Shown here: positions 16,979 through 46,978 of the stretch, piece after piece
Position numbering within the stretch: position 1 is the stretch's first letter
Layout of the letters: each line of letters begins with the position of its first letter
Source: a bacterium
GTDB lineage: Bacteria; ARS69
NCBI GenBank assembly: GCA_025774805.1
Contig: JALGZR010000047.1
Location: forward strand, 1-54,238
Length of the DNA stretch: 54,238 nt
Direction: 5' to 3'
Position numbers and translations under genes: made by a program
Notes under the pieces: generated by a model
Told to the model about the DNA's origin: nothing
The model's input: the letters and a program-made list of their open reading frames with translations, nothing else
Database searches by the model: none

Positions 16979-17247
16979 GCTCCACGGCAGGTCTCTTCCG
17001 GAACGGTCCGGAACGGAGAATAGGGCCACCTCCCGGAGGAGTCCACCTTCTCTCTATTGCTTGCAATTAAGGATAGATCGTCTCGACTGCCTCCGCAAGC
17101 GCGATTCTGGCACTTCCTTGGTCATTGGACTTGACATTCTGCGCTTTTGCGGGCAGTGTAGTTTGAGCAACGTTGCTAGAAATTCACCATCTCACCCCGC
17201 TCGGGCGGGACCCGCCGGGCGGCTCGACCCATCTGGGAGGATGGAGG
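16979..17247. other. AT-richer intergenic region upstream of the VCBS protein
   Basis: No gene is visible. Bases ~17050-17180 are clearly AT-richer than the surroundings and carry a TTGACA at 17131 with weak -10 candidates (CAGTGT at 17 nt, TGTAGT at 20 nt). This is the likely promoter zone for 17248-19068. A direct repeat CGGAACGGTCCGGAACGG lies near 17000. Confidence 0.45.
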
Positions 17248-19068
17248 ATGTCGGTCATGACTGGAGAGCGTTGCTGGGAGCTTGTCTCGGGGGATTGGCG
17301 GCGGAAGACCTTGCGCGGCTGGAGGAAAAAGGGGGTGGGGGGGACGTTGGCGGGAGCGCTCGGGCTCTTGGCGGGCTCGGGCGAGGGCGCGGCCGTTCCG
17401 GTCTTCACAGAGATTGCGGAGTTCGGAGAGGGGTCCACGATTCCGGTCGCCTGGGGGGACTACGACCTCGACGGAGACTGGGACCTGGCCGTCGGGAACT
17501 ACTTCGGGGAACAGAACTATCTCCACACGAACGATGGCTCGGGGAGCTTCGACTCGACGGCGGCCTTCGGAAGGAAGTCGACGTTCGCGCTCGCGTGGGG
17601 CGACTACGACAACGACGGCGATCCGGACCTGGCCGTCGGCAACGGCCTGACCGGCTTTTCGAACAACAGCCGGCTCATCACGAATCTCGGCGACGGCACG
17701 TTCTCCGGAGCCGCGCAGTTCGGAGACCGAAACACGGTCGCGTTGGCGTGGGGGGACTACGATCTCGACGGCGATCTCGATCTCGCGGTGGGAAACGGCC
17801 TGCTGGGTGCCGCGGAGGCGAACTACCTCTACCGGAACGACGGGGGGGGCTCGTTCGCGGAGCTGCAGGCGTTCGGAGCGGGGCAGTCCGCGTCCCTCGT
17901 CTGGGGCGACTGCGATGGGGACGGCGATCTCGATCTCGCCGTCGGCAACGGTGGCTTCATATCGGCGGAACCGAACTCCCTCTACATCAACAACGGGGAC
18001 GGAACGTTCACCGGGCGCGCCGAGTTCGGTATGGGTGACACCTCGTGCCTCGTCTGGGGAGACGCCGATGGAGACGGCGATCTCGATCTCGCGGTCGCGA
18101 ACTGGAACGGAGGGCAGAACCGGCTCTATCTGAACGACGGCTCGGGGAACTTCTCCGGCCAGGACGCCTTCGGCGCGCGCGACCCGAACACGATGGCGTG
18201 GGCCGACTGCGATCACGACGGCGACCTCGACCTCGCCGTCGGGAACGGCGACTTCGGCAGCGCCGATCAGAACTACCTGTACGAGAACGACGGAACCGGC
18301 CAGTTCACCGAGCACGCGGTCCTGGGGCTCGGGAGCACCGACTCCTTCGCCTGGGCCGACGTGGACGGGGACGGCGACCTCGATCTCGCGGCGGGGAACG
18401 AGCACCATCCACTCCAGAACTACCTCTACCGGAACGACGGAAGCCATCCGGGATGGATCCGCCTCCACCTCGTCGGACGCTTCCACGATCAGGGCGCCGG
18501 TTGGTCGAACCGGGATGCGATTGGGGCGAAGGTCTCCGTCTACGAGACGGGGCACATCGGGGACGCAGGCCGCCGACTCGGGTTCCGGGAGGTGGAAGCC
18601 CACGGTGGGTTCGCGGCCCAGAACGCCATCGACCTCCACTTCGGCGTGGGCGCTTTCGGAACCGTCGAGGTTCGGATCGAGTGGCCCGGGTCGAACGGGT
18701 CGAGGATCGTTCAGGACGTGACGGGGCTCAGTGCGGGAACGGTCCACACCGTGGTGGAGTCGGACGGCTCGACGTCCGCGGCGAATCCGGTCCACGGAAG
18801 CGCGGCATTCGAGGCGCGCCCCAATCCCATGCGGACGGGAACGTGGATCCTCCTCGGGCGTCGTCTCGCTCGCGCGGATCGGTTCACCGTTTTCGACGTC
18901 GCCGGCCGCGCGATCCGCGAGCTGCCCGCGGCCGACTCCGGAACCGGGGTGAGGGCCTACTGGGACGGACGCGCCGAGGACGGGATCCCCGTCCCGGGGG
19001 GCGTCTACTTCGTGAAGGTCACCGGGGAATCAGGGGAGCGATCCTTACGGATCGTGGCGATCCGGTGA
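17248..19068 (+). CDS. Secreted VCBS/FG-GAP seven-repeat protein with ASPIC/UnbV and FlgD-like tail
   Basis: A 606-aa protein. A long basic N-region (to ~35) leads into a signal-like core (GGTLAGALGLLAG). Seven ~45-residue repeats follow, each with a D-x-D-x-D-G-D-x-D-L-A-V-G-N calcium-loop motif (WGDYDLDGDWDLAVGN and so on), enough for one seven-bladed propeller. Then come an ASPIC/UnbV domain (GAKVSVYE...DLHFGVGAFG) and a C-terminal FlgD-like Ig domain (FTVFDVAGR...GGVYFVKVTG) as used for secretion or surface attachment. The start is chosen at ATG 17248 with GGAGG directly upstream; ATG 17257 is a close alternative. It probably acts outside the cell in binding or adhesion. No enzyme motif is seen. 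Confidence 0.85.
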   Translation: MSVMTGERCWELVSGDWRRKTLRGWRKKGVGGTLAGALGLLAGSGEGAAVPVFTEIAEFGEGSTIPVAWGDYDLDGDWDLAVGNYFGEQNYLHTNDGSGSFDSTAAFGRKSTFALAWGDYDNDGDPDLAVGNGLTGFSNNSRLITNLGDGTFSGAAQFGDRNTVALAWGDYDLDGDLDLAVGNGLLGAAEANYLYRNDGGGSFAELQAFGAGQSASLVWGDCDGDGDLDLAVGNGGFISAEPNSLYINNGDGTFTGRAEFGMGDTSCLVWGDADGDGDLDLAVANWNGGQNRLYLNDGSGNFSGQDAFGARDPNTMAWADCDHDGDLDLAVGNGDFGSADQNYLYENDGTGQFTEHAVLGLGSTDSFAWADVDGDGDLDLAAGNEHHPLQNYLYRNDGSHPGWIRLHLVGRFHDQGAGWSNRDAIGAKVSVYETGHIGDAGRRLGFREVEAHGGFAAQNAIDLHFGVGAFGTVEVRIEWPGSNGSRIVQDVTGLSAGTVHTVVESDGSTSAANPVHGSAAFEARPNPMRTGTWILLGRRLARADRFTVFDVAGRAIRELPAADSGTGVRAYWDGRAEDGIPVPGGVYFVKVTGESGERSLRIVAIR

Positions 19069-22012: not shown

Positions 22013-24259
22013 TCAGCGGAGGCGAACGCTCCGCTGGGTGAGGGTCCGGGATCCGTCGGTGACCCGCCAGAAATAGACCCCGGCGGGCACGGATCGCCCG
22101 GCGTCGTCCCGTCCGTCCCAGCGAAGTGTCGTGGTGCCGGGGGGAATCGTCTCGTCGGAGATCTCCCTCACGCGCCGGCCGACCACGTCGTGCACGGTCA
22201 CGTCGAGACGGATCGAACGGTCCGTGGCCAGGCGCACCTTCTGGTCGAAGCGCGCCGGCTGGGGCCGGGGGGGAGAGAGCGCCCAGCCGGAGCGCCGTGC
22301 CCCCGGGTCGAGGTCCGCGCCCGTGCTCGGGATGTTGTCCTCCCTGAGCGTCCAGATCCCCCGCGGGAACGGGGCGATGATATCGACACCGCCGGACGTC
22401 CACTCGATGATGAGAGAGTCGGCGAGGGTTGCCGCGCCGAGCCCGAAGTGGAGGCGCATGGGATCCTGAAAGCCGCGCCAGGAGTTCGCGGTGACGTGGC
22501 GCTCGATCCGGTCCGTTCCGACGACCACGGTCACCAGCGAGCCGATGGCGGTGGGCCCCGAGACGCGCCCGACGAGATCGATCTGAATCGAGTTCCCACG
22601 GTTTCCCTCGTTCGCCAGCAGCCAGGCCGGGCCGAGCTGCGAGAACGCGGCCGGTCCCGCCCCCTCGAGCAGGTAGAGATCGAGATCGCCGTCCCCGTCG
22701 ACGTCTCCCCACACGCCGCCGTCGCCCAGCCCCTGGGAGCTGCCCGCGACTCCTTCCGAGTTCGTCACGTCGGCGAACGTCACCCCGTCGTTGCGGAAGA
22801 GAGCATCCGGAGCGTTCGGGTCGGCGCTCGTCCCCGCATCCACGACGTGAAGGTCCAGATCGCCGTCGTTGTCGTAGTCGACCCAGGAGATGTCCCGGGG
22901 ATTCGTCATCGCCGTGGGAAGGCCGAGTGAAAAGGAGACCTCGATGAAAAACCCTCCGAGGTTGCGCCAGACGCGCGGCGCCCCGGGAGTGAATCCGGGA
23001 TGCTCGAGATCGTGTTCGGTGACGCCGGTCACCGGGGCGTCCTGGGCGAACCAGCCGTCGAAGTTGTCGTAGTTCAGGTTGGGCGTGGAGCAGCGGAGCT
23101 GCCACTTGCCGCCGGCCCCCTCCCGCCAGACGAAGATCCCCTGATCCACCCCCGGGGTGAACGTCGGAGCGCCGACGTAGTCGTCGGTCAGGGGGATCGT
23201 GGTCGCGGTCGTGTCCGGGGGATTCACCGCACCCGGACCGAGGAAGATCTTTTCGAAGTCCAGGAAGCCGCGGATTCGCAGGAACGCGAACACGGTGTCC
23301 TCGAGGGCGGGGATCGTGAGTCCGTCGACGCCGGTGTCGCCGTACCGGGAGTTGAAGAAGAAGGTGACCGTGTCTCCCTCGGCGTAGCTGTCGAAGATGC
23401 CGGTCTCTCCGGTGCACAGCGCGAGGTCGAGATCGCCGTCGACGTCGAAATCCCCCCAATCCGCGCCCGACGCCACCGGCAGGCTCGGGGTGAAGACGCC
23501 CGAGTCGTCGACGAAAGTCCCGTTGTCGTTTCGATAGAGGATGGTCGGGCGGGGGAACTCCTCGCCGCCGACGAGGAGGTCGGGATCCCCGTCGTCGTCG
23601 TAGTCGCCCCAGATGCCCCCTACGGTTCCGTGCGGCTCGTCGAGGCCCACGCCGGCGGCGACGTCGGTGAACGTGAGAGACCCGATGTTCCGGAAGAGCG
23701 AGTTCATGCTCACCGCGTCGGGCGCCTTACCCACCCAGACGTCGACCTTCCGGTCGCCGTCGTAGTCCGCCGCCGAGGCGCATCGGCTCCGCCCGATTCC
23801 ATCGGCCATGCCCCCCGCACCGAGGATGGAATGGAGGACTCCGTCGCCTTGGTTGAGATAGAGCTCGTTGTCTTCGGACCCGCCTCCCCCGCCGCCGCCG
23901 TGGGCCACGAAGATCTCGGGATCCTCGTCGAGGTCGAGGGAGAGCGTGACGATCCCGTGCCGATCGATCGGGCCGCTCCACGGCGGCGCATAGAGCGTGG
24001 AGTCGAAGTGCCCGGTCCCGTCGTTCCAGAAGAGGACGGGATCATACAGATGGTGTCCGGCGTAGATGTCCAGGTCGCCGTCCCGGTCCATGTCGACGAT
24101 CGCCGCCCCCCACGTGGTCTGGTACCAGAGGAGTCCCGACGCCGCGGTCCGGTCGACGAACTGGGATCGGGCGGGGGCGGCCAGGAGGATGAGCAGGAAG
24201 AGGACGGAGACCGGTAGGGCGATCCGTGTCGGGGTGCGCAGCAGAGAAGAAAGGAGCAA
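22013..24259 (-). CDS. Secreted VCBS/FG-GAP + ASPIC/UnbV protein with FlgD-like C-terminal domain
   Basis: A 748-aa protein with a strong signal peptide (LPVSVLFLLILLAAPARS). It has several D-x-D-x-D-G-D calcium loops (DMDRDGDLDIYAG, DYDDDGDPDLLVGG, DFDVDGDLDLALC, DYDNDGDLDLHVV, DVDGDGDLDLYLL), an ASPIC/UnbV region (GSLVTVVVGTD...LHFGLGAA) and a C-terminal FlgD-like Ig domain (VTVHDVVGRRVRE...AGVYFWRVTDG). It looks like a two-part propeller with a divergent middle section (~residues 290-420) that lacks clear repeats. Only a TTG (24259) can start the signal peptide in frame. It is divergent from the CRTAC1-like gene at 24414 with 154 bp between them. Confidence 0.82.
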   Translation of the reverse strand: MLLSSLLRTPTRIALPVSVLFLLILLAAPARSQFVDRTAASGLLWYQTTWGAAIVDMDRDGDLDIYAGHHLYDPVLFWNDGTGHFDSTLYAPPWSGPIDRHGIVTLSLDLDEDPEIFVAHGGGGGGGSEDNELYLNQGDGVLHSILGAGGMADGIGRSRCASAADYDGDRKVDVWVGKAPDAVSMNSLFRNIGSLTFTDVAAGVGLDEPHGTVGGIWGDYDDDGDPDLLVGGEEFPRPTILYRNDNGTFVDDSGVFTPSLPVASGADWGDFDVDGDLDLALCTGETGIFDSYAEGDTVTFFFNSRYGDTGVDGLTIPALEDTVFAFLRIRGFLDFEKIFLGPGAVNPPDTTATTIPLTDDYVGAPTFTPGVDQGIFVWREGAGGKWQLRCSTPNLNYDNFDGWFAQDAPVTGVTEHDLEHPGFTPGAPRVWRNLGGFFIEVSFSLGLPTAMTNPRDISWVDYDNDGDLDLHVVDAGTSADPNAPDALFRNDGVTFADVTNSEGVAGSSQGLGDGGVWGDVDGDGDLDLYLLEGAGPAAFSQLGPAWLLANEGNRGNSIQIDLVGRVSGPTAIGSLVTVVVGTDRIERHVTANSWRGFQDPMRLHFGLGAATLADSLIIEWTSGGVDIIAPFPRGIWTLREDNIPSTGADLDPGARRSGWALSPPRPQPARFDQKVRLATDRSIRLDVTVHDVVGRRVREISDETIPPGTTTLRWDGRDDAGRSVPAGVYFWRVTDGSRTLTQRSVRLR

Positions 24260-28076: not shown

Positions 28077-29129
28077 GTGAAAATTGCAACCTCACTTGCA
28101 CTGGCTCTGATCCTCGCCTGTACGGGATCGGCGCTGGCCTTCGTACCCACCACGTCGAATGTGGCCGATATCGACGCGAACCAGGCGCTGAAGGACGCCC
28201 AGGTTTTCGGCGAGCCGGATCCGCAACCGAACGTCGGTGGCGACACGATCGCCGACGCCGTGCCGATTCCCGCGTGGCCCTACACGGACTCAGGGAATAC
28301 GTGCAGCTTCAACCACGACTACGACGAGGTCTGCCCGTACAGCGGCTCGCTCTCGCCCGACGTCGTCTACAGCCTCGTCCCGACCGCTGACGATGCCTTC
28401 AACATCAGCCTGTGCACGTCGCTCTACGACACGAAGGTGTACGTGTACGAGAACGTAGCGGGCAACCTGGCCGGCTGCAACGACGACGCCTGCGGCGACG
28501 ACGGCTTCAAGTCGGAGCTCAAGGTCTTCACGACGGCCGGCAACACGTACTACATCGTCATCGACGGCTACGGCAGCGACTGCGGGGAGTACATCCTCGA
28601 CATCGACAAGCAGATTCCCTGCGTGAAGGACTGCCCGCCCGGCGGCCATCTCGAAGGCGAGCCGGATTGCGAACCCAACTACAACGACGTGTTCAACGGT
28701 GGCTGCAACAGCGTACCGCATGTGTTCTCTCCGATTCCCTGCAAGTACGCGGCGACCATCTGCGGGAAGTACGGTGGATTCCTCTGGAACGGTCTGAGCT
28801 ACCGCGACACCGACTGGTACAAGTACGATGCGGGCCTGAACCAGAACGGCCTGATCATTTGCTGCAACGGCGAGTACGACACCCTCTTCGGGTACCTCGC
28901 CAAGGACTGCGGCGCCCCGGCCTTCGAGGAGTACCTGATCCTCGAGCCTTGCGTCGAGGGTTGCCTCGCTGTTCCGCCGGGAGACTGGTGGATCTTCGTG
29001 GCCACGCTGAACTTCGGCCCGGCCGCGGGAGCCTGCGGCGGCGACTACATCCTGACGGTTGAGGGACTCGACTGCCCGATCGCGGTAGAGCCCGCAACCT
29101 GGGGCGAGATCAAGAACGAGTACCGGTAA
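28077..29129 (+). CDS. Cys-rich secreted protein with two pre-peptidase-like domains and a WGEIKNEYR tail
   Basis: A 350-aa protein starting at GTG (28077) with AAGGAG 6 nt upstream and a compact signal peptide (KIATSLALALILACTGSALA). The mature part has about 20 Cys, implying disulfides. It also has two related beta-domains: the first (DVVYSLVPTADDAFNISLC...YYIVIDGYGSDCGEYILDI) has the look of a bacterial pre-peptidase C-terminal/PPC-type domain, and the second repeats the pattern (DTDWYKYDAG...WWIFVATLNFG...YILTVEG). The last ten residues TWGEIKNEYR match those of the cupredoxin at 35780. It has its own promoter-like region and a strong terminator, and its codon use is less GC-biased than its neighbours, which suggests high expression. 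Function unknown; probably surface or extracellular. Confidence 0.75.
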   Translation: MKIATSLALALILACTGSALAFVPTTSNVADIDANQALKDAQVFGEPDPQPNVGGDTIADAVPIPAWPYTDSGNTCSFNHDYDEVCPYSGSLSPDVVYSLVPTADDAFNISLCTSLYDTKVYVYENVAGNLAGCNDDACGDDGFKSELKVFTTAGNTYYIVIDGYGSDCGEYILDIDKQIPCVKDCPPGGHLEGEPDCEPNYNDVFNGGCNSVPHVFSPIPCKYAATICGKYGGFLWNGLSYRDTDWYKYDAGLNQNGLIICCNGEYDTLFGYLAKDCGAPAFEEYLILEPCVEGCLAVPPGDWWIFVATLNFGPAAGACGGDYILTVEGLDCPIAVEPATWGEIKNEYR

Positions 29130-29164
29130 CCCGGTACGTTCGCTTGATCCGCCATCGCGAAGTG

Positions 29165-29196
29165 GAGCGGGTGTCCTCCGGGGCACCCGCTCTTTT
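29165..29196 (+). terminator. Intrinsic terminator after the Cys-rich protein, overlapping the next gene's start
   Basis: Stem GAGCGGGTG / CACCCGCTC extended by two C-G pairs and a wobble around a UCCG loop, followed directly by TTTT. It begins 35 nt after the stop. The candidate starts of the downstream gene (GTG 29162 or 29171) lie in or beside the stem. Confidence 0.8.
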
Positions 29197-30655
29197 CGTC
29201 CGTCTCGTCCGTCTCGCCGCTCTGTCCCTCGCTCCGGCTCTCGTCGCTCTCGGCCCCGCCGGCTGCGCCCGAGAGGAGGCCGGCCCGGGCCCGAACGGGG
29301 CGGCGCCCGAGGCGGAGGGCCCCGGCCCCCGCAGGACGGACACCCCCCCACCCGTCGGGATCGATCCCACGTCCGTCGGCACGCGCGGAAAGCTCGTCGA
29401 TCGTCTCTTCGTCTTCGCGCTCGACGGCGCCACGTGGGACCTTCTCGATCCTCTCCTCGAGTCGGGTCGCCTCCCCCACCTGGCCGGTTTGGTCGAGCGG
29501 GGCGTGACCGCGGAGCTCCGCACGCTGGAGCCCACCGTCTCCCCCGCGATCTGGACGACGATCGCCACCGGGTTCCTCCCCCGCGATCACGGAATCCTCG
29601 GCTTCGACGGCGTGCCCGGTGCCACGATGACGACCCTTCCGAACGCGCGGATGCGCCGGCGCAAGGCGTTCTGGGAGATCCTCGCCGGGTTCGGGATTCG
29701 AGCGGGGGTCGTGGGGTGGTGGGCGAGCTGGCCGGCGGACCCGCTGAACGAGGGGAGCTTCCTCGTGAGCGACCGGGTCCCCTACAGCCGGATGGAGGCG
29801 GCGATCCGGCGGGCCTCGCTCACCCGGGAGGACGCCTGGCCTCCCGATCTGCTCGACTCGCTCGGCCCGCTCGTGGAGCGCCCCGACGAGATCGCGCCGG
29901 CGGCGGTCCGGAGGTTCCTCCACATGGATCGCGACGAGATGCAGCGGCGGCTCCTCGGCGGGGCCTATCGCATGGGCAGCTACCTTCCGGAGTTCAAGTT
30001 CGTCTACCAGTCGGACCGCTCGACGGTGAAGATGGCACGGGCGGCCCTCGCCGCGCAGCCCGTCGACGTGGCGGTCGTCTATCTCACCGGCATCGACACG
30101 GTCAGTCACCTGTACTGGCACTTCATGGAGCCGGAGGGCTTCCCGCCGCAGGCCGCACCGGAGGGGGACCGGCGGCGCTACGGAGAGGTCATTCCCGAGT
30201 ACTACGTGCTCGTCGACGGCTACCTGGGAGACCTGCTCGACACGGTCGGCGACGGGACCACCGTGATCGTCGTCTCCGACCACGGATTCGGACCGACCGG
30301 GAGACTTCCGTGGTCCGGCGGCCACGGGCGGCTCACCCCCGGCGCCCCGATCGCGCCGGCCGGTGTGCTCGTCCTCGCGGGCCCGGGGATCGCGGTGGGG
30401 CCCCGGCGGCTCGAGCGGGCGCACGTCCTCGACATCGCGCCCACGCTACTTCACCTGATGGGAGTTCCGGCGGGCGAGGACATGCTCGGACGCGTCCTGA
30501 CGGAGGCTCTGGCAAGCGACGGCCCGCCCGAGCTTCCCCGGGTGGATTCGCACGAGCGGATCGGGATCCTCCGACCCGACAGGGACATCCCCACCGATCC
30601 CGCGGGGGACTCGGAACGCCTGGAACGCCTCCGCGCCCTCGGGTACATTCAGTGA
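29171..30655 (+). CDS. Alkaline-phosphatase-superfamily phosphodiesterase/phosphotransferase lipoprotein
   Basis: About 494 aa. An N-terminal signal with a lipobox (LVALGPAGC) predicts a membrane-anchored lipoprotein. The catalytic domain has the type I phosphodiesterase/nucleotide-pyrophosphatase pattern: metal Asp ~85 in FALDGATWD, nucleophile Thr ~129 in PAIWTTIATG, YLTGIDTVSHLYW (metal Asp and His) and VSDHGFG. It would cleave or transfer phosphate esters outside the cytoplasmic membrane. The start is uncertain (GTG 29171, GTG 29162 or TTG 29144), and the terminator of the previous gene overlaps it. Its stop overlaps the next gene's GTG start (GTGA), so it is coupled to the GT-C/TPR protein. 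It probably modifies a glycan or lipid made by that enzyme; substrate unknown. Confidence 0.82.
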   Translation: MSSGAPALFVRLVRLAALSLAPALVALGPAGCAREEAGPGPNGAAPEAEGPGPRRTDTPPPVGIDPTSVGTRGKLVDRLFVFALDGATWDLLDPLLESGRLPHLAGLVERGVTAELRTLEPTVSPAIWTTIATGFLPRDHGILGFDGVPGATMTTLPNARMRRRKAFWEILAGFGIRAGVVGWWASWPADPLNEGSFLVSDRVPYSRMEAAIRRASLTREDAWPPDLLDSLGPLVERPDEIAPAAVRRFLHMDRDEMQRRLLGGAYRMGSYLPEFKFVYQSDRSTVKMARAALAAQPVDVAVVYLTGIDTVSHLYWHFMEPEGFPPQAAPEGDRRRYGEVIPEYYVLVDGYLGDLLDTVGDGTTVIVVSDHGFGPTGRLPWSGGHGRLTPGAPIAPAGVLVLAGPGIAVGPRRLERAHVLDIAPTLLHLMGVPAGEDMLGRVLTEALASDGPPELPRVDSHERIGILRPDRDIPTDPAGDSERLERLRALGYIQ

Positions 30656-33018
30656 CCGTGCAACGACTCCCCTTCCCGCCGCACGCCGTCCTCGGCCTGC
30701 TGATCGTCGCCGGCGCCCTCCTGCGCTTCGCCTATCTCGAGGATCGGACGGAGTCGCCCGACTTCGAGGCTCCCCTTGCGGACGCCGCGTTTCACGACTA
30801 CTGGGCCAACGGACTCGCGACCGGAAACTGGACCCCGCCCGCGGGGGAGTCGGACCCGAGGCTGACCGAGGTGCCGTTCCTTCGCCCGCCCGGCTATCCC
30901 TACTTCCTCGCGGCGGTCTACGCGGTGAGCGGAGGCGATCCGATCGCGACCCGGTGGATCCAGTTCGCTCTCGGGCTCCTCAACTGCGGGCTCGCGTACC
31001 GTCTGGGAGGGGTCCTCTTCCGTCCCGCGGTGGGGCTCGTCCTCGCCGCCTTCGGCGCGGTCTACTGGGCCCTGATCTACTTCGAGGGAGAGCTGCAGGC
31101 GTCGGTCCTGATCCAGACCGTGGCCCTCCTCGCGGTGCTCGCGCTCCACCGGTTCGCCGAACGGCCCTCGCTTCCGCGGGCCGCGCTCGGGGGTGCGTTG
31201 CTCGGCCTGCTCGCCCTCGTCCGCGCGAACGCTCTTCTCTTCATCCCGGTGGCCGCGCTGTGGGCGGCGTTCGCCCGACGCCGGGAGGGGGAGGGACGGG
31301 TCGCGGCGGGAGGTGCCGCGGTCGTCCTCCTCGCCGCGTTGCTGGCGGTCCTTCCCGCGACCCTCCGCAACTGGCGGGTGTCCGGCGATCCGTTCCCGGT
31401 CTCCGCCAACGGAGCGATCAACCTCTTCATCGGCAACAACGAGAGGTCCGACGGAATCTCGGCGAACGTCGCCGAGCTCGAGATGCTGACGGGACGACCG
31501 AGCTGGAGCTGGTTCTCCTACGACCGAATGGTGAACGCGCTCTCCCGTCGAGAGGGGCGGACCATGAGCTACTGGGACGTGTCGCGTTACTTTCGCCGTT
31601 GGGCGTTCGAGTTCATCCGCGAGCACCCGGACCGGTTTCTGGCGCTCAGCCTCCGGCGGGCCGCGCTCTTCTGGGGACCGCACGAGGTCTCCAACAACAA
31701 GGCGATCCGATTCGAGAAGGAGGCCAGCCGCGCGCTGAGCTGGTGTCCCGGATTTCCTTTCGTGCTGGCGATCTCGGCGGCGGGGGCGGTGCTCCTGCTG
31801 CGGGACCTCCGGAGACGACCGGGAGCGCGCGAGTCGAAGAGAAAGGACCTCGACCGGCCGGCTCCGATCCCCGAACCGGTCCGCCGCACGCTGTTTCTCG
31901 TCGCCGCGTTCGTGGCGACGTGGTTTCTCTCATTCGTGCCGTTTCTGGCCGCGGCCCGCTTCCGGGTACCGATCCTGCTGTTCGTGTTCCTGTTCGGAGC
32001 CTACGGGGTCGTGCGCGTCGTCGAGCTGATCCTCGTGCGGGCGTGGAGGTGGTCGGCCATCTGGGCGGTGGCCGCGGGTGCGGTGCTCCTGGCCGGAAGC
32101 CGTCCGCTTCTCGGCGAGGAGATCGAGCGCGCCTGGTGGCATACCGATCGCGGGGTGGCCCGCCTGCGGACGGGGGACACCGACGCCGCCATCCGGGAGT
32201 TCGAGGCCGCCCTCGCCTCGAACCCGGGCTTCGTCGACGCGCGGGTTCGACTCGGAGAGACCTATGCGCGGATCGGACGGGTCGAAGACGCCATCCGCGA
32301 GTACCAGCTCATCCTCGACCATCGCCCGAAGAAGACCCCCGTGCGCGCGCAGCTCGCCCAGCTCCTCACCGATCAGGGGCGGGACACCGAGGCCCTTCAG
32401 CACTGGCACGTCGTCACCGTGGCCATGCCGGACCTGCCCGAGGGCCACTTCCAGTACGGTCGGGCGCTCGTGGAGAGCGGGCAGTACGAGACCGCGGTCG
32501 AGTCGTTTCAGCGGAGTCTCGAGCTCGTGCCCGACGACGCCGTGTTCCGCGTCAATCTCGGCATCGCTCTCGACCTGGCGGGACGCTACGACGAGGCGAT
32601 CGAGGCCTTCCGAGAGGCGCGGGACTCGGATCCCTACCTTCCCGAGGCTCACTTCCACCTGGGAAACGCCCTCCAGAAGGCGGGAGATCTCGCGGGGGCG
32701 GAGGCGGCCTTCCGGGAGGCGGTCCGGGTCGGGTCCGAATACATCGAGGCGCACGTCCATCTGGGGAATCTGTGCACCGAACAGGGCCGCTTCTCGGAGG
32801 CGTTGGCCGCGTACGAGAAAGCGCTCGACATCGATCCGGACCACGTCACGGCCCTCTACAACTTTGCCGGCGCTCTGGGAAACACGGGACGTCTCGAGGA
32901 GGCGATCCGTCCCCTCGAGAGGGCGCTCGCGGTCGACCCCAACCACCTCCTCACCCGGCAGCGCCTGCGCATCCTCCGGGAGATGATCCAGCAGCGCGAG
33001 GCGGAGGAGGGGCGCTGA
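30652..33018 (+). CDS. GT-C membrane glycosyltransferase fused to TPR repeats (TMTC-like layout)
   Basis: A 788-aa protein. Residues 1-~480 form a polytopic GT-C fold (GT39/GT83/ArnT-like) with ~11 helices. The first outer loop contains the acidic FEAPLADAAFHDYWANGLA region where the catalytic Asp is expected, and later RPPGYPYFLAAVYAVSG. Residues ~495-785 hold about eight TPRs (AIREFEAALASNPGFVDARVRLGE, AIEAFREARDSDPYLPEAHFHLGN, ALAAYEKALDIDPDHVTALYNF). Fusion of a GT-C glycosyltransferase to TPRs resembles eukaryotic TMTC protein O-mannosyltransferases, so a protein acceptor is conceivable. The GTG start at 30652 overlaps the previous stop. Donor is probably a polyprenyl-phosphate sugar; the acceptor is inferred only. 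Confidence 0.82.
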   Translation: MTVQRLPFPPHAVLGLLIVAGALLRFAYLEDRTESPDFEAPLADAAFHDYWANGLATGNWTPPAGESDPRLTEVPFLRPPGYPYFLAAVYAVSGGDPIATRWIQFALGLLNCGLAYRLGGVLFRPAVGLVLAAFGAVYWALIYFEGELQASVLIQTVALLAVLALHRFAERPSLPRAALGGALLGLLALVRANALLFIPVAALWAAFARRREGEGRVAAGGAAVVLLAALLAVLPATLRNWRVSGDPFPVSANGAINLFIGNNERSDGISANVAELEMLTGRPSWSWFSYDRMVNALSRREGRTMSYWDVSRYFRRWAFEFIREHPDRFLALSLRRAALFWGPHEVSNNKAIRFEKEASRALSWCPGFPFVLAISAAGAVLLLRDLRRRPGARESKRKDLDRPAPIPEPVRRTLFLVAAFVATWFLSFVPFLAAARFRVPILLFVFLFGAYGVVRVVELILVRAWRWSAIWAVAAGAVLLAGSRPLLGEEIERAWWHTDRGVARLRTGDTDAAIREFEAALASNPGFVDARVRLGETYARIGRVEDAIREYQLILDHRPKKTPVRAQLAQLLTDQGRDTEALQHWHVVTVAMPDLPEGHFQYGRALVESGQYETAVESFQRSLELVPDDAVFRVNLGIALDLAGRYDEAIEAFREARDSDPYLPEAHFHLGNALQKAGDLAGAEAAFREAVRVGSEYIEAHVHLGNLCTEQGRFSEALAAYEKALDIDPDHVTALYNFAGALGNTGRLEEAIRPLERALAVDPNHLLTRQRLRILREMIQQREAEEGR

Positions 33019-33051
33019 GGCGCCCCCGGCGGGACTTCGGACGACGGGCTC

Positions 33052-33600
33052 TCAGGCGAGGAGACGGGAGAACAGGAAGCTCCCCAGCGAGACTCCGGCG
33101 CGGTAGACGAGATAGACGGCGCCGGCGGCGGTGAAGAGAGTCGCCGCGGACAGCGCCGCGGTGACCATCACCGGGGTTCCCGGTGAGAGCAGCGTTCCGA
33201 GCGAGGGGCCGGGGAAGGCTCCGGACGCGATCGCCGCGAGCAGGTCGGCCCCGGCCGCACGGAGTGAAGGCCCCCAGAGGAAGAGAACCGAAGCGAGCGC
33301 GAGAGCGCCGAGGACCGGAGGCTCGAGCAGCGCGCCGACCCACCATGGGAGCATCGGATCACCGTCGGCCAGCGTGACGATCGGATCCTCCGTCGCCCGG
33401 CGGGGAAGGCGCTCGAGGACCCGATCGGTGAAGGAGGCGGGGGCGCTGGCGAAGCGCTGCGTCAGGACGTCGTCCAGCGCCCGGGCCGCCTCGAGCTCCT
33501 CGGAGCATCGCCCGCAGGACTCCGCGTGGGCGAGCGCATCCGGGGCGACGCTCCGGGGTCGGCCCCGATCGAGCCACTCCTCGAAACGGCTACAGTCCAC
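33052..33600 (-). CDS. Anti-sigma factor with zinc-binding ZAS domain
   Basis: A 182-aa protein. The N-terminal cytosolic ZAS motif is H25-x3-C29-x2-C32 (HAESCGRC). Hydrophobic segments follow around residues 88-110 (LLEPPVLGALALASVLFLW), a weaker one near 115-130, and 145-170, so it is an inner-membrane anti-sigma factor. It overlaps the upstream ECF sigma gene by 11 bp, the usual pairing. It would hold that sigma factor until an envelope signal releases it. No periplasmic sensor domain of size is present, only a short loop. Confidence 0.85.
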   Translation of the reverse strand: MDCSRFEEWLDRGRPRSVAPDALAHAESCGRCSEELEAARALDDVLTQRFASAPASFTDRVLERLPRRATEDPIVTLADGDPMLPWWVGALLEPPVLGALALASVLFLWGPSLRAAGADLLAAIASGAFPGPSLGTLLSPGTPVMVTAALSAATLFTAAGAVYLVYRAGVSLGSFLFSRLLA

Positions 33601-34228
33601 GAGGTCCCTCCCGGCGCGTGTGCCGCAACCAGGACCGCCGGAGGATCGACCGCGAACGGTACAGGTGACTCTTCACCGTACCGGGGGGTAGATCCACGAT
33701 GCCGGCGATCTCCTCGATCGACTGATCCCGCAGATAGAAGAGCGTCACGATCGCTCTCCGCACCGGGGGCAGCTCTGCGAGGATCCGCTCCAGCCGCGTC
33801 AGATCGGTCGGCGGAAGCCCGCGGCGCGCCGGCGCCGCCAGGTTCTCCAGGGCTCCGGGGTCGCCGGCGATCATTCTCTCCGGCCGTCGGCGCAGGGTGT
33901 TCGCGACGTCGATCGCGCGGCGGGTCACGATGCGATAGAGCCACGTGGAGAAGCGCGCCTCCTCCCGGAATCCGGGAAGAGCCCGCCACGCCCGCACGAA
34001 CGCGTCCTGGGCGACCTCCTCCGCCTCTTCCCGCGACCGGACGATGCGCCGCGCGGTCTCGACCACGGCATCCCGGTGGCGATCGACCAGGCGCCGGAAC
34101 GCCTCCGGGTCGCCCCCCTGCGCCCGTCGGATCCAGACGGCCTCCTCTTCCTCGGAGCGGACGCCGGTCGAGGTCTCGAGTCCGGATCGCACGAGCGGAG
34201 CGAGCGTGGCGGCGAGAGAGGCTTCCAT
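33590..34228 (-). CDS. ECF (RpoE-type) RNA polymerase sigma factor
   Basis: About 212 aa from ATG 34228. Region 2 is clear (DPEAFRRLVDRHRDAVVETARRIVRSREEAEE...FVRAW...FSTWLYRIVTRRAID) and region 4 follows (LERILAELPPVRRAIVTLFYLRDQSIEEIAGIVDLPPGTVKSHLYRSRSIL) with its HTH. In-frame codons run upstream to a GTG at 34315, but that part is not sigma-like. It directs transcription of an envelope or stress regulon and is coupled to its anti-sigma factor. It is divergent from the membrane protein at 34389, which may be a target. No ECF promoter consensus could be assigned by eye. Confidence 0.9.
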   Translation of the reverse strand: MEASLAATLAPLVRSGLETSTGVRSEEEEAVWIRRAQGGDPEAFRRLVDRHRDAVVETARRIVRSREEAEEVAQDAFVRAWRALPGFREEARFSTWLYRIVTRRAIDVANTLRRRPERMIAGDPGALENLAAPARRGLPPTDLTRLERILAELPPVRRAIVTLFYLRDQSIEEIAGIVDLPPGTVKSHLYRSRSILRRSWLRHTRREGPRGL

Positions 34229-34388
34229 ATCGGTATGGACGGGCGAGGTCCGGGGTCCGGTTGCAGGAAAACCGCCGAGATCGAAAAAAAGGCGAAACCG
34301 GACCCGAAGCCCCACCGGTCCCAGAGGGCAGGAGCACCCACTGCGACCTCGATCGGGACGTCGGGCCCGGAAAGGAGTCTAGCACGCC

Positions 34389-34910
34389 ATGGATTCGATC
34401 TTCGACTTCGCCGCTCTGCTCGCGATGCTGCTGATCCCCCTGGTGGCGATCATCGGAGGGATCACCGCGGGGATCATCAAGTCCCACCACCGCCAGAAGC
34501 TCCTGGAGCTCGCTCAGCGCGAACGGATCGCCGCGATCGAGCGGGGCGTCGATCCGAAGGAGATCGCGCCTCCGTCGCTTCCTCCCGAGGTCCTGACCCG
34601 TTTCGGAAAGGACTTCTCCGAGGTGCGGCAGCTCCGGCGCTCGCAGCTTCTCATGATCTGGGGGCTCATCTCGGCCGGATTCGGCGCCGCGCTCTCGATC
34701 ATGCTCGTCGTGCTCGAGGACGTGCAGGAGCCGGGACAGTGGGCGGGGGGGATGATGTTCGTGCTGATCGGCCTGGCCCTCGTGATCAGCTCCCGGGTCG
34801 TCCGTCCCGACCCCGAAGACGTCCGCCGCGAGAAGGAGCGCTGGATGCGGTTCCAGAACGGCGAGACCCAGGACAGTCTCACCGCGACCGACACCGCGAC
34901 GGAAATGTGA
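34389..34910 (+). CDS. Small inner-membrane protein, DUF6249-like
   Basis: A 173-aa protein: one N-terminal helix (FAALLAMLLIPLVAIIGGITAGII), a charged cytosolic stretch (HHRQKLLELAQRERIAAIERGVDP), then a hydrophobic hairpin (LLMIWGLISAGFGAALSIMLV and GGMMFVLIGLALVISSRVV) and a charged tail. This pattern recurs in small uncharacterised proteins next to ECF sigma genes in Bacteroidetes-like genomes (DUF6249). It lies divergent to the sigma/anti-sigma pair. Its stop overlaps an in-frame GTG of the methyltransferase. Confidence 0.65.
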   Translation: MDSIFDFAALLAMLLIPLVAIIGGITAGIIKSHHRQKLLELAQRERIAAIERGVDPKEIAPPSLPPEVLTRFGKDFSEVRQLRRSQLLMIWGLISAGFGAALSIMLVVLEDVQEPGQWAGGMMFVLIGLALVISSRVVRPDPEDVRREKERWMRFQNGETQDSLTATDTATEM

Positions 34911-34912
34911 TC

Positions 34913-35632
34913 GTGACCGAAGAGCTCTACGGAGATCGCGCGGGACTCTACGACCTCATCTACTCCGGAAAGGACTACCGGGCCGAGGCCGATCGGATCG
35001 CCGCGATCTTGACGGAGGAGGGAGTGCCGCCCGGCTCCCGAGTCCTGGACGTCGCGTGCGGAACCGGCGAGCACCTCGCGACCCTCGCCCGGCGTTACGC
35101 CGTCGCCGGCCTGGACCTCAACCCGGCGATGCTCGCGATCGCCCGAAAGAAGCTCCCCACCGCACTTCTGCTCGAAGCGGACATGGAGGAGTTCTCGGTC
35201 GAGAAGTCGTTCGATGCCCTGCTCTGTCTCTTCTCCTCGATCGGCTACCTTCACGGGAAGAAGGCGTTGCGCCGCGGGGCCCGCGCGTTCGCGGGCGCCG
35301 TCCGCCCGGGGGGAGTCGTCATCCTCGAACCCTGGCTCTCGCGGGAGGCGTACCGGGAGGGGACCCCCCACCTCCACACCTACGAGAGCGAGGACCTCAA
35401 GGTCGCCCGCGCGGCGGTCTCCGGCATCCGGGACGACGTGGCGGTCATCGACTTCCGCTGGCTCGTCGCGCGGCGGGACGGCTCCATCGAGTCCTTCGGG
35501 GAGCGTCACGAGCTCTGGTTCTGCCCCTACCCGCTCCTCGAGTCGGTCTTCCGCGACGCCGGGATCCCCCTCGCCTACCGGGAGGAGGGGCTGACTCCCG
35601 GCCGGGGGCTCTTCGTCGGAAGGCGGGAGTGA
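34913..35632 (+). CDS. Class I SAM-dependent methyltransferase
   Basis: About 239 aa. It starts YGDRAGLYDLIYSGKDY and has the SAM motif I VLDVACGTGEHLATLARRY, motif II LDLNPAMLAIARKKL, and LCLFSSIGYL / VRPGGVVILEPWL blocks, typical of the Methyltransf_25/11 group that includes dTDP-sugar N-methyltransferases (DesVI/TylM1-like). Substrate is not determined. The start is GTG 34913, or GTG 34907 which overlaps the preceding stop (GTGA) and would couple the genes. Cytosolic. It is followed by 147 bp without a gene before the cupredoxin. Confidence 0.85.
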   Translation: MTEELYGDRAGLYDLIYSGKDYRAEADRIAAILTEEGVPPGSRVLDVACGTGEHLATLARRYAVAGLDLNPAMLAIARKKLPTALLLEADMEEFSVEKSFDALLCLFSSIGYLHGKKALRRGARAFAGAVRPGGVVILEPWLSREAYREGTPHLHTYESEDLKVARAAVSGIRDDVAVIDFRWLVARRDGSIESFGERHELWFCPYPLLESVFRDAGIPLAYREEGLTPGRGLFVGRRE

Positions 35633-35779
35633 ATCGAGCGTCACCGTCGGCTGTCACGTCCGGCCCCGGATCTCGAAGGAGAGGCATCGGACCGACCCGG
35701 TGAGCGTCCCCGGGCCTGTCCTCGAGCCATTTTCACCCTTCGCCCCACTCTCGATGTTCTCGACGCCGGAGTGATCCCC

Positions 35780-36202
35780 ATGCCGAAGAAGACCGTTCTC
35801 CCCGTTCTCGTATCCCTGACCGCTCTCCTCGTCACGATCCCGGCCGCCGCCCCCGCCGCCACGCACTCCGTGAACCAGGTCGGAACCTCGTTTCAGCCGG
35901 ACTCGATCGAGATCGCCGTCGGCGATACGGTGGAATGGATCTGGAGCATTGGCAGCCACACCGTGACGAACGGCGTGGACCTGGACGATCCGGAAGTCGG
36001 CACGCTCTTCGACGCACCGCTGAACTCGATGAACCCGCTGTTCTCCTTCACGTTCAACGACGCGGGGACCGTGCCCTACTTCTGCCGCCCGCACCGCCTC
36101 TTCGGCATGACCGGAGTGATCGTGGTCACCGAGCCGCCGACGAGCGCGGAGGAGCCGAACGGCCCGGTGAGCTGGGCGCGGGTCAAGACCCTCTATCGCT
36201 GA
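35780..36202 (+). CDS. Exported cupredoxin (plastocyanin/azurin-like) with a WARVKTLYR C-terminal tail
   Basis: A 140-aa protein from ATG 35780 with GGAG 8 nt upstream. A signal peptide (VLPVLVSLTALLVTIPAAAPAA) is followed by one cupredoxin domain. Type 1 copper ligands are His60 (GSHTVTNG), Cys102, His105 and Met110 in FCRPHRLFGM. It would carry electrons or bind copper in the periplasm or outside. After the domain there is a linker (SAEEPNGP) and the tail SWARVKTLYR, which matches the end of the Cys-rich protein at 28077. No oxidase gene is adjacent. It is convergent with the RND operon. Confidence 0.88.
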   Translation: MPKKTVLPVLVSLTALLVTIPAAAPAATHSVNQVGTSFQPDSIEIAVGDTVEWIWSIGSHTVTNGVDLDDPEVGTLFDAPLNSMNPLFSFTFNDAGTVPYFCRPHRLFGMTGVIVVTEPPTSAEEPNGPVSWARVKTLYR

Positions 36203-36271: not shown

Positions 36272-39200
36272 TCACGGCGCCTCCGGGACCTCCGGGGTGG
36301 GGCGGGTGCGCCTCGCGACCTCCATCGTCCGCACCCGTGCCGCGCGGGCGCACGCCCGGAGATTCGCGATCCACCCGTTCGCGATCCGGTAGTAGGTCGG
36401 CATGACGATCAGCGTGAGCAGGGTGCTCGAGAGCAGCCCTCCGATGATGGCGCGCGCCATGGGGTAGTACTCGGCGTCCCCGATGTGCGTGTCGCGGAAC
36501 AGGGCGAGGGGAAGCAGGCCGAGAATCGTCGTGCCGGCCGTCATGAGGATGGGACGGAGGCGCTCTGCGCCGCCGACCAGGATCGCGTCGTCCATGGACC
36601 GGCCGAGGCGCCGGTGCTGGTTGATGTGGTCGACGAGGACGATTCCGTTGTTCACGACGATGCCGATGAGGATGACCATTCCGATCATGGCGAGCAGGTT
36701 GAACGGGGTGGACGTGGCCATCATCAGCCAGAAGGTGCCCAGGAACGCGAACGGAACGCATCCCATGACGACGCCGGGATGAATGAGGGACTCGAAGAGG
36801 CTCGCCATGACGAAAAAGACGCAGAAGAGGGCGAGAATGAGGTTGATGCCCATCTCCGACTGCCGCTCGCGGGAGCGCTGGATGCGCTCGCCGAAGTTCC
36901 AGGTGTAGCCGAACGGCATGTCCATGTCGTTCAGGACCGTCTCGACCCGCTCGAGGCAGTCGTCGAGTCGCTCTCCGTCGTACGAGGCGTTGAGCGAGAT
37001 ACCGGTCTTCTGATCGACCCGGCGGATCTCCTGGGGGCTTCGCTCGAAGTAGAAGTCGGCCACCTGCCCGAGGAGGACCGGAGCGCCGTTCTCGATCGCG
37101 ATCGTCAGTGAGCGGAGATTCTCGATCGATTCCGTGTCGTCCGGAAGAAGGGAGATCGACAGGTCGATCTCCTTGTCTCCCGTATTGAGACGGGGGAGGT
37201 TCATTCCCCGGTAGGTCAACGCGAGGACCTGGCCGATCTCCTCGGCGCGAATCCCGAACTGGGCCGCCCTCTCGGGATTCACCGTGACCCGGATCTCCGG
37301 ATGACCCCGATCCGCCTCGCTCGTGACGTCGGTGACGCCCTCGAGGGAGGCGAGACGCCGGCGGGCGTCCTCGACGAGCCGATTCAACAACTCGGTGTCC
37401 TCGCCCGAGACCGTCACGCTGAATCGCTTCGCCCCCGAGTCGTTTCCCTCCTCGTCCCCGAAGACGTATTCCGCCCCCGCCTGCACCGGGAGATTCTCCC
37501 GCAGGTCCTCCCGGGTCTTGCGCAGGAACTCCGTGTCGATGACTCCCTGCTCGAACATGACCGCGATCCCGGCCACGTCCGCGGCGAAGTAGGAGTAGAT
37601 GTCGCGGATCCCGAGATCCTCCCGGCGGGTCTCGAGATACTCTTCCACGACCTCGACGTAGCGTTGCGACGTCTTCCGGTCGACCGGGCCGGTGTACTCG
37701 AGGTCGACGTAGAGTCGCTCGTGGCGCATTCCCTCGTCGCCGCTGTCGTCCGGCTTGAATCCCGTCACGACCATCAATGTCGCCGTGACCGCGAGGACCG
37801 CGGGAACGATGGCGAAACCGGTGACGTAGGGGTGGCGGATGGCCGTCCAGCCCAGAATCCGGACGTAACGGGCCCGGACGGCTCCGATCCACCCCGGCTC
37901 CCGGCTCTCCCCGTTGTCCCGGGCGAGGAAGACGGACAGGGAGGGGATGACGGTCAGGCTGATGAGGAGGGAGCAGACGATCGTCACGCTGATCGCGACC
38001 CCCACCTCGCCCAGCCAGACCGCGAGCTCGTCGGCCTTCGTGACTATGATCGGAGCGAAGACGATGATCGTCGTGAGCGTGGACGCCACGATGGCCCGGC
38101 CCACGTCTCTCGTGCCCCGCAGCGCCGCCGCCACGGGCGAGGCGCCCAGGTTGCGGCGGCGGTGGATCGACTCGAGCACGACGACGGCGTTGTCCACGAG
38201 CATCCCGATTCCGAGCATCAGTCCCATCATCGTGAGCACGTTGAGAGTGCCCCCGCTCAGGTAGAGAAAGACCCCCGTCCCCAGGATCGAGATCGGGATG
38301 GAGAGGGAGACCAGAAGCGTGAGTCCGACCTTTCGGAGGAAGACGAAGAGAATCGTCATCGCCAAGACCGAGCCGAAGAGCCCGGCCTTCCAGAGCCCGG
38401 CGAGGGAGTTCGTGATCTGGTCGGCCTGGTTGAAGAAGGTGAAGCAGTTGATGCCCCGGAGCGCGGGATCCCGGTTGATCTCCTCGAGCCTCCGCTCGAC
38501 CGCCCGGCACACCTCGACCGTGTTGTGTCCGGAGGCCTTCTGGATCCAGAAGGCGATCGCGAACTCGCCGTTCAGATGGCGCCCGTACGAGGGAGCCGGG
38601 GCCGCGTAGACGAGCTCGGCGACGTCCTTCAACCGCAGCCCCCGCTCGTCGACGGGCAGCTCGCCGAGCTCGCGCATGTTCTCGATGCCCGAGACCGCCC
38701 GGAGATCGTACCGAAGACCCCCGTCGGTGACGCGGCCGACGGTGAGGTTGACGTTCGCGGCCGCGAGATCGTCGAAGAGCCGCCCGACGTCGACCGAGTG
38801 CTCCTTGATCTTGTCCAGGCGAAGGTAGATCGCCCCCACCGTGGGGTTCACCCCCCCGATCTCGCAGCGACCCACCCCCGGGATCTGCTGGAGCGGGATC
38901 CGGATCTTCTGCTCGATGAGGTCCCAGCTCTCCGAGAGGTCCCGCCCCTTCGCCGAGATTCTCCCCTGGACGACCGGAATGTCGTTCGAGTCGAACGTGA
39001 ACAGGAAGATCTGCCGGACGTCGGAGGGAAGCTCCCCGCGAATCTGGTCGACCTTCTCCTGGACCTCCATCCGGAGCACGTTGACTTCCCGTCCCCAGTC
39101 GAACTCGACGCCGACGAAGGTGCCCTCCTCGTCACTCTCGCTGAAGAAGCTCTGAATCCCCCCGAGAGTCGCGAGGATCTCCTCCAGGGGGCGGGCGATC

Positions 39201-39385
39201 TCCCGCTCGATCTGGCTGGGGATCCCGTTGGGGTAGGGGACGTAGATGCCGATGAACGGGAACTCGACCCGGGGGAGAAAGGCGAGGGGGAGCCGCCCGA
39301 ACGAGACGAGCCCGAGGATCACGACGGTCGTCAGACCCATGACGAGCGTGACGGGCCGGCGAAGGGAGAGGCGCGTCAACCACAT
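36272..39385 (-). CDS. RND efflux permease (HAE1-like), second of two
   Basis: A 1037-aa RND pump of normal length with 12 helices and two large periplasmic loops. TM4 has GMLVDNAVVVLESI, so the second Asp of the AcrB pair is Asn. TM10 has GIVVNNGIVLVDHI without the Lys seen in AcrB. Both are common in the non-AcrB HAE1 branch. The ATG at 39385 is chosen because GGAGG lies just upstream and MWLTRLSLRRPV is the typical start; it follows the first pump's stop by one base. With the first pump and a single adaptor it may form an MdtBC-like heterotrimer. Substrate unknown (drugs, lipids or metals). Confidence 0.9.
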   Translation of the reverse strand: MWLTRLSLRRPVTLVMGLTTVVILGLVSFGRLPLAFLPRVEFPFIGIYVPYPNGIPSQIEREIARPLEEILATLGGIQSFFSESDEEGTFVGVEFDWGREVNVLRMEVQEKVDQIRGELPSDVRQIFLFTFDSNDIPVVQGRISAKGRDLSESWDLIEQKIRIPLQQIPGVGRCEIGGVNPTVGAIYLRLDKIKEHSVDVGRLFDDLAAANVNLTVGRVTDGGLRYDLRAVSGIENMRELGELPVDERGLRLKDVAELVYAAPAPSYGRHLNGEFAIAFWIQKASGHNTVEVCRAVERRLEEINRDPALRGINCFTFFNQADQITNSLAGLWKAGLFGSVLAMTILFVFLRKVGLTLLVSLSIPISILGTGVFLYLSGGTLNVLTMMGLMLGIGMLVDNAVVVLESIHRRRNLGASPVAAALRGTRDVGRAIVASTLTTIIVFAPIIVTKADELAVWLGEVGVAISVTIVCSLLISLTVIPSLSVFLARDNGESREPGWIGAVRARYVRILGWTAIRHPYVTGFAIVPAVLAVTATLMVVTGFKPDDSGDEGMRHERLYVDLEYTGPVDRKTSQRYVEVVEEYLETRREDLGIRDIYSYFAADVAGIAVMFEQGVIDTEFLRKTREDLRENLPVQAGAEYVFGDEEGNDSGAKRFSVTVSGEDTELLNRLVEDARRRLASLEGVTDVTSEADRGHPEIRVTVNPERAAQFGIRAEEIGQVLALTYRGMNLPRLNTGDKEIDLSISLLPDDTESIENLRSLTIAIENGAPVLLGQVADFYFERSPQEIRRVDQKTGISLNASYDGERLDDCLERVETVLNDMDMPFGYTWNFGERIQRSRERQSEMGINLILALFCVFFVMASLFESLIHPGVVMGCVPFAFLGTFWLMMATSTPFNLLAMIGMVILIGIVVNNGIVLVDHINQHRRLGRSMDDAILVGGAERLRPILMTAGTTILGLLPLALFRDTHIGDAEYYPMARAIIGGLLSSTLLTLIVMPTYYRIANGWIANLRACARAARVRTMEVARRTRPTPEVPEAP

Positions 39386-39386
39386 C

Positions 39387-42300: not shown

Positions 42301-42764
42301 GCGACGTTCCGGACCGATACGAGGGGGGCCCGGCCCCAGAGTCCGATGCGGAGGATCGGGTCGAGGGCCGGGTCGTACTTGAGGAGGAGGGGCGGGCGCG
42401 AGTCCTCGGGCAGAGTGACGAGGTCGATCTTCTCCCGCACGTCGAGACCCGCGAAATCCATGTCCGTCGACCAGTCGAACTCGAGGGTGACCTGGGAGAG
42501 GCCGGCCTGACTGATCGAGTGGACCTTGCGGAGTCCGGGGATGACTCCGACGGCCTCCTCGAGCGGCCGGGTCACGAGGTTCTCGACGTCGAGAGGGGCC
42601 GTGTTCGGATACTCGGTCTGGATCGTCAGGCTCGGGTAGCGGATCTCGGGGAGAAGCCGAACGTCGAGCCGGGCCAGCGCGACGAGGCCGAAGACCACCG
42701 CCGCCACGGTGGCCATCGACACCGTGACGGGATGGGAGACGGCGAAGGGGACGACCTTTCTCAT
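39387..42764 (-). CDS. RND efflux permease (HAE1-like), first of two, with an extra central insert
   Basis: A 1125-aa RND pump, ~80 residues longer than its partner. The start MRKVVPFAVSHPVTV is typical. TM4 has GMLVDNSIVVLESI, with only one Asp of the pair, and TM10 has GIVVNNGIVLVDRI. The extra length is a cytosolic insert between TM6 and TM7 (DNA ~41060-41300) with a charged stretch and a hydrophobic segment (FLFVGVPVAVYRFVARIFRFV), possibly a membrane-associated helix. The start overlaps the adaptor's stop by 4 bp (ATGA). Energy would come from the proton gradient across the inner membrane. Confidence 0.9.
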   Translation of the reverse strand: MRKVVPFAVSHPVTVSMATVAAVVFGLVALARLDVRLLPEIRYPSLTIQTEYPNTAPLDVENLVTRPLEEAVGVIPGLRKVHSISQAGLSQVTLEFDWSTDMDFAGLDVREKIDLVTLPEDSRPPLLLKYDPALDPILRIGLWGRAPLVSVRNVAEDVLKKEIESLAGVAAAKVAGGLEEEILVQVDEARLAGLGISILEVNDALARENVNASGGRLRDRNAEYLVRTLSRFEELEEILDVSVAVRGGQPIKLADVAEVHRGHKERSTITHVNGRESVEIAIFKEGDENIVEIANRVRRHLDRIGDQLPEGIELEVLFDQSVFISQAVREVRNNAFLGGVLAILVLYLFLRNFRSTVIIGLSIPISIVATFILMYTRGVSLNVMSLGGLALGVGMLVDNSIVVLESIHRRRTELTEGEGPEGEEKAITRGAGEVAGAVTASTLTTVAVFVPIVFVVEGVSGQIFRDQALTVTFSLLVSLLVALTFTPMFAAIGRRRAERDGSDGRGAEAGTLPGSWKELISDGRGPRWLRGAAPFLFVGVPVAVYRFVARIFRFVGRLAGRAMHPAIWTFEKTFPRTVTAYDRLLRGSLARRGLVLAGVAALTVATGLLLGVLGTELIPPLSQGQLTLALELPEGTPLSRTERAVARIGRELREIDGIELLSANVGLTQEGGGTFARQKESRADVHLRLASASRELEARVLEDVRKVFSNHPEVALKVRRPALLTFNTPVEVDVYGYELGALMSTADRVASEMESVAGLRDVRLAMVPGSPEVRVTFDRDKLNRLGLRLSDVARTVRGKVRGQVASQFRDQEKHIDIRVQNDPDQRNTMSAIRDLIVAERNGIPIRLGSIAGMEIVQGPAEIHRLERKRVAIVSANLAGRDLGSVTEELEGKLRGLVLPANVHAEIGGQNEEMQRSFRSLQMAILLAVFLVYLVMASQFESFLYPFIIMFTVPLALMGAVIGLAVTGTALSVIAAIGGIMLAGIVVNNGIVLVDRINQLRRRRLELHDAVMQAGRERFRPILMTTATTVLGLLPMALGIGDGAELRAPLAITVISGLLLATVLTLVVVPVTYTLLTPGSGALGRSPAGRRARDPRVEAGSAGLGGAGSAGLDGTAPAGRGAGAGG

Positions 42765-44041: not shown

Positions 44042-44142
44042 GGGGGCTCTCCTGTAGGCGGCGGAAGACGCACCGGGCGGCCGTCCCGGCAGGGGTCATG
44101 CGTATGAGGACGTAAGGCAGGGGGCGAATGTTTCACCCGACC

Positions 44143-46817: not shown

Positions 46818-46978
46818 CTGCGAACTCCTGGTCCCGGGGGCGGGCACCGTCTTTCGAGTGGACGAGCTCGCCGGCTCCCCGGCGGCTCCACTTCACTTCT
46901 GGGACGCCGGAGCGCGCGAAAGCGTTCGAAAGCTCCGCGCATCTTTACATTCCCTGACACGAACCCCGACACGAACCG

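Follow-up and report, generated by a model that had tools for sequence, protein, structure and literature searches.

Short C-terminal tags shared by many unrelated exported proteins are known from the PEP-CTERM, GlyGly-CTERM, and MYXO-CTERM families (associated with exosortase, rhombosortase, and myxosortase, respectively), which may number up to dozens of proteins in a genome. In these tags, the motif precedes a transmembrane helix, which a basic cluster follows. Other short C-terminal peptides are those of encapsulin cargo and comparable docking helices, which sit on a flexible linker and belong to cytoplasmic proteins. C-terminal signals are likewise used by the type IX secretion system (T9SS). 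Those described so far are the type A, type B, and type C domains (PMC10202324, PMC12618676), the shortest known signal having ~40-55 residues (PMC11969387). The type A C-terminal domain (TIGR04183/PF18962), together with its FlgD_ig-like variant, is a folded Ig-like domain of ~70-100 residues (40-55 in the short form), found on Sec-exported proteins in genomes with SprA, PorU, and PorV. Type B (TIGR04131) and type C (ChiA type) are alternative signals beside type A; they have ~100-235 residues and occur mainly in Bacteroidota, and PorP/SprF shuttle genes often accompany type B.

The window, i.e., the whole stretch of 54,238 nucleotides that was analysed, encodes two exported proteins that end in a common tag of ten residues and two that carry a larger domain in its place:

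28077..29129, plus strand: Cys-rich exported protein of 350 residues, with an N-terminal signal peptide (MKIATSLALALILACTGSALA) and the C-terminal tag
29097..29126, plus strand: tag TWGEIKNEYR, followed by the stop codon at 29127-29129
35780..36202, plus strand: cupredoxin of 140 residues (alternative start at 35771), with a signal peptide, H-C-H-M type I copper ligands, and the C-terminal tag
36170..36199, plus strand: tag SWARVKTLYR, followed by the stop codon at 36200-36202
17173..19068, plus strand: exported FG-GAP/ASPIC protein (start uncertain), with a FlgD/type-A-like C-terminal domain instead of the tag
22013..24259, minus strand: exported FG-GAP/ASPIC protein, with a FlgD_ig C-terminal domain instead of the tag

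A preliminary description of this DNA had noted the two tails at the gene ends (29129 and 36202), directly at the stop, on bodies that it considered unrelated, as well as FlgD-like tails on two further exported proteins, and each of these points holds. In profile searches, the body of the Cys-rich protein gives only a weak PPC match and the other is a plastocyanin-type cupredoxin; the FG-GAP/ASPIC pair matches FlgD_ig, once above and once just below the cut-off, with weak, sub-threshold matches to TIGR04183. Within the window, only the two tails match the exact pattern, a third match having two mismatches. An apparent RND-type efflux cluster on the minus strand (36272-46896, with the transporter at 36272-39430 and further genes at 42761-46896), recognised by eye from the translations only, is unrelated to the tag.

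The tag is retained while its surroundings change. All seven homologues found of the Cys-rich protein, from other lineages or from elsewhere in the source genome, keep it, and in the five that were aligned (35-41% identity), the preceding linker diverges. Two Eisenbacteria homologues of the cupredoxin close with the variants ATWSQVKALFQ and SWSELKQLFQ; since these tandem cupredoxins (L200:5214-6121; KALFQ, KQLFQ) show Q in place of R, the last residue of the tag may vary.

When the 5.1 Mb source genome was searched with a degenerate DNA pattern for W-[GA]-x-[IV/M]-K-x-x-[YF]-R, 44 matches were obtained versus none for the reversed control; with a stop codon added to the pattern, the counts were 29 and 0. 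The remaining 15 copies lie 1-10 residues upstream of the stop codon. Consequently, the tag is C-terminal, as the preliminary description held, but its position "exactly at the stop", true of both window genes and of 29 copies in the genome, is not obligatory, and a requirement for the tag to sit exactly at the C-terminal carboxylate was rejected. Allowing L for I/V and S for G/A adds ~15 carriers, so that exact and near-variant tags together mark ~60 exported proteins with many unrelated domains, among them parallel beta-helix-like proteins, cupredoxin, and Cys-rich proteins. In each of four relatives from the same family, the number of exact copies is 18-46, and the tag is present in 76 of 80 genomes of the phylum of genome G029. 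Other tag-bearing records are labelled Eisenbacteria, Krumholzibacteriota, Latescibacterota, UBP1, Gemmatimonadetes, Ignavibacteriae, Calditrichaeota, and Hymenobacter, although some of these labels may be outdated. Thus, dozens of otherwise unrelated exported proteins, in the source bacterium and in several other phyla, are observed to share the tag.

Among 316 tagged frames collected across genomes, the tag abuts the stop codon in 293, a signal-peptide-like start is found in 274 (by a simple hydrophobicity heuristic), and ~15 have a lipobox-like site. The tag is essentially never internal: all but two copies lie at the stop or within ~11 residues of it. The first apparent internal motif (L148) comes from a tagged lipoprotein unit that is duplicated in tandem, each unit closing with a tag-like motif; the second (L178; VEEISWGAIKALYRDGSRSG inside a 454-residue frame) is the single true exception. 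Tags or close variants are also borne by NTF2-like proteins with a lipobox-like site (L108:2014-3192, L110:1151-3047, L122:1363-3499, L124:3445-4620, and L148).

The preliminary description had read the tail as a sorting or anchoring signal, which many tagged exported proteins of diverse kinds would support and which would be refuted if only two proteins carried the tail or if it were not enriched at C-termini or in exported proteins. The supporting outcome was obtained, the refuting one was not, and the reading is well supported by the ~60 carriers, the C-terminal position, and the signal-peptide-like starts. That the tag is a C-terminal address on exported proteins can be regarded as established, with very little room for doubt. 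It lacks the architecture of a CTERM tag: behind the motif there is neither a transmembrane segment nor a trailing basic cluster, and its closeness to the stop leaves no room for such a helix. With encapsulin cargo it shares the short C-terminal peptide on a linker, whereas its carriers are exported. No name for the motif was found in Pfam or NCBIfam profiles or in the full text of open papers (subscription papers and preprints were outside the scope), and searches of open papers for C-terminal sorting in the tag-bearing phyla, also with motif strings, gave nothing that matched.

Alignment of 311 non-redundant tails from several phyla gives the consensus E-x-x-[ST]-W-G-x-[IV]-K-[AS]-[LM]-[YF]-R. 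Columns outside the search pattern are conserved as well: S/T precedes W in 94%, a small residue follows K in 85%, L/M/I precedes Y/F in 81%, and E lies three residues before S/T in 53%. Judged from sequence, this layout is that of a predicted N-capped amphipathic helix. In AlphaFold models built from six-sequence alignments, the Cys-rich protein of the window has a low-confidence detached helix whose residues, 342-349, are exactly the tag, and a second tag protein, a single-copy protein with an FN3-like domain (see below), is a beta-sandwich with an unstructured tail. The tag is therefore unpacked in both predictions and helical in one. This is weak support for a free tail, because low confidence is expected both for such a tail and for shallow alignments.

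Which machine might read the tag is suggested by its distribution. A broad sample of bacterial families (386 genomes) contains 48 genomes with the tag and 102 with SprA_N (PF14349), 47 being common to both sets. The one tag genome without a SprA match is G185, and a congeneric genome (G321) has a weak match; in another tag genome (G043), the SprA match is below the family cut-off. In the Bacteroidota-type phylum of G415 (296 genomes), the tag was observed in 69 genomes, all 69 with SprA, and in none of the 68 genomes without SprA, most of those listed belonging to one family. Neither comparison was corrected for phylogeny, and part of the correlation is shared ancestry, since SprA also marks the FCB superphylum. 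Furthermore, the tag is not required for the T9SS, because many SprA-positive genomes lack the exact tag.

In the source genome itself, SprA (TIGR04189, 553 bits; cut-off 200) and PorU (NF033707, 536 bits; equivalog cut-off 420) were identified, the latter adjoining one (219 bits; cut-off 90) of ~10 PorV-family genes. This PorU (G000:C31, L352) has 1496 residues; the genome, from a small phylum, also gives ~14 C25 peptidase matches. C25 peptidases occur in 17 of 17 multi-tag genomes tested. At three loci, a tag gene has a PorV-family gene in its vicinity, which was considered as a partner, but with ~10 PorV genes and ~45 tags in the source genome, this is no more than expected by chance. No recurrent or dedicated receptor gene was found beside the tag genes of multi-tag genomes; in this respect they differ from type B genes with their PorP/SprF partners. 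The preliminary description had also suggested looking for a co-occurring protease or translocon. A co-occurring machine was found in the T9SS, with no demonstration that it recognises the tag directly; a dedicated protease was not identified (exosortase and rhombosortase were outside the search). The PorU-type C25 peptidases of tag genomes provide no evidence on cleavage of the tag. For a T9SS-dependent signal, one would expect T9SS core genes in the carrier genomes, as is the case for SprA in 47/48 and 69/69 genomes and for SprA, PorU, and PorV in the source genome, and a place at the C-terminus of proteins that have a Sec signal peptide, which is also found, within the limits of the simple heuristic. 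A link between the tag and the T9SS is likely.

A second line of evidence comes from the proteins that carry a FlgD/type-A-like domain. The bodies of tag proteins match parts of such proteins (~30-44% identity over 150-320 residues), so the larger domain is found on homologous bodies in the place of the tag, and the two were never observed together in 177 tag proteins (regular expression). Tag proteins are shorter, with a median of 262 versus 715 residues. The tag resembles the type A domain in being C-terminal, on Sec-exported proteins, and in genomes with SprA, PorU, and PorV, and differs from it in being a linear, putatively helical peptide of ~10 residues. No NCBIfam or Pfam match to TIGR04183/PF18962 or TIGR04131 was found on the tag proteins scanned (the scan had no separate model for type C), and the tag has no sequence relation to type B or type C.

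Genomes of Bacteroidota, Ignavibacteria, Calditrichota, and the like usually have a single copy of the tag. In most cases examined, the lone carrier is a protein of ~140 residues with a signal peptide, an FN3-like domain, and a tail that reads TWGSIKA[ML]FR or differs only slightly from it (RTWGSIKA[ML]FR for T9SS-positive Bacteroidota and their relatives). The bodies are ~30% identical, whereas the tail is nearly invariant and is the most conserved part of the protein; near variants of it occur in SprA-positive genomes without a match to the exact pattern. A fold search returned only generic FN3/Ig-like sandwiches with weak E-values. In multi-tag genomes, the FN3-like domain was matched only within larger frames, and in the source genome (L339), it directly precedes a FlgD/type-A-like domain. 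Thus, this domain precedes a type-A-like domain in large cargo, and the single-copy protein has the tag there. In L034/L203, L035, L125, and L132, a DUF4835 gene, identified by profile or similarity, lies directly upstream of the single-copy gene (in L203, the pair is at 8118-8972 and 9034-9438), and the two may form a conserved T9SS operon. DUF4835 is listed as a hypothetical T9SS component (PMC9722745) and is inferred to be the T9SS protein PorD (PMC8754138, PMC10994853).

Taken together, these results have led to the hypothesis that the tag is a short linear C-terminal export signal of the T9SS, to which we assign a probability of roughly 0.55. In this model, carriers would reach the periplasm through the Sec pathway by means of their signal peptide, and an acidic or Pro-rich linker would then present a free amphipathic helix, capped by S/T at its N-terminus, one face of which bears W, I/V, L/M, and Y/F and the opposite face K and R. 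An outer-membrane component of the T9SS, most likely a shuttle barrel of the PorV/PorQ type or SprA with accessories, would recognise this helix and pass the protein to the cell surface, the tag replacing the larger type A C-terminal domain. The reading of the tag by the T9SS, outer-membrane translocation by means of it, the identity of the receptor, and the necessity or sufficiency of the tag for transport through SprA are all inferred. Besides the shared ancestry, the SprA-positive genomes without the exact tag, the two exceptional tag genomes, and the lack of a dedicated receptor gene beside tag genes, two further points stand against the model: known T9SS signals are domains of ~40-235 residues rather than a ten-residue helix, and the lipoprotein-like carriers (~15/316) are unusual for T9SS cargo.

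It is possible, though rather unlikely, that the tag is no export signal and serves as a dock or anchor. It would then hold proteins, whether exported by the T9SS or otherwise, at some component of the T9SS or of the outer membrane (e.g., a PorV-like barrel, PorD/SprE, or the SprA complex), and the single-copy protein would be an accessory part of the T9SS. A free helix on a linker is compatible with such docking, lipoprotein-like carriers occur, and genomes full of type A cargo have one near-invariant carrier, in some lineages beside DUF4835. However, the ~60 unrelated carriers of the source genome and the 18-46 exact copies in its relatives resemble a set of cargo, and their bodies are interchangeable with those of FlgD/type-A-domain proteins. 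It is unlikely that the tag is part of some other envelope pathway, merely co-inherited with the T9SS in FCB lineages (e.g., outer-membrane or surface-lipoprotein sorting, peptidoglycan docking, or periplasmic retention). No physical link of the tag to the T9SS has been shown, some carriers are lipoprotein-like, and both SprA and the tag are concentrated in FCB-type phyla, where their association is uncorrected for phylogeny; yet the tag is absent from all 68 SprA-negative genomes of a phylum in which it is common among SprA-positive ones, and neither the synteny with DUF4835 nor the swaps with FlgD/type-A-like domains would be expected. Finally, two proteins may share ten residues by chance, but an accidental match, like the relic of a C-terminal domain once shared by homologous proteins, is already refuted by the genome counts (44 versus 0 control matches), the relatives, and the G029 phylum, and by a tag that stays on unrelated bodies while linkers and trailing residues vary.

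There is an even chance that the tag represents a fourth class of T9SS sorting signal, and a minimal one, in which a helical peptide of ten residues replaces the folded C-terminal domain. Dozens of cargo proteins would use it in Eisenbacteria, Krumholzibacteriota, Latescibacterota, and the source phylum, and it was perhaps ancestral on one conserved protein with an FN3 domain and this tail, in T9SS bacteria from Bacteroidota to Calditrichota. The T9SS would then read a linear peptide besides folded domains, providing a tractable handle on the question of how cargo is recognised, and the tag would be of use in listing the surface proteome of several uncultured phyla. Should the link to the T9SS fail, a near-invariant decapeptide found across phyla still points to an unknown receptor in the cell envelope.
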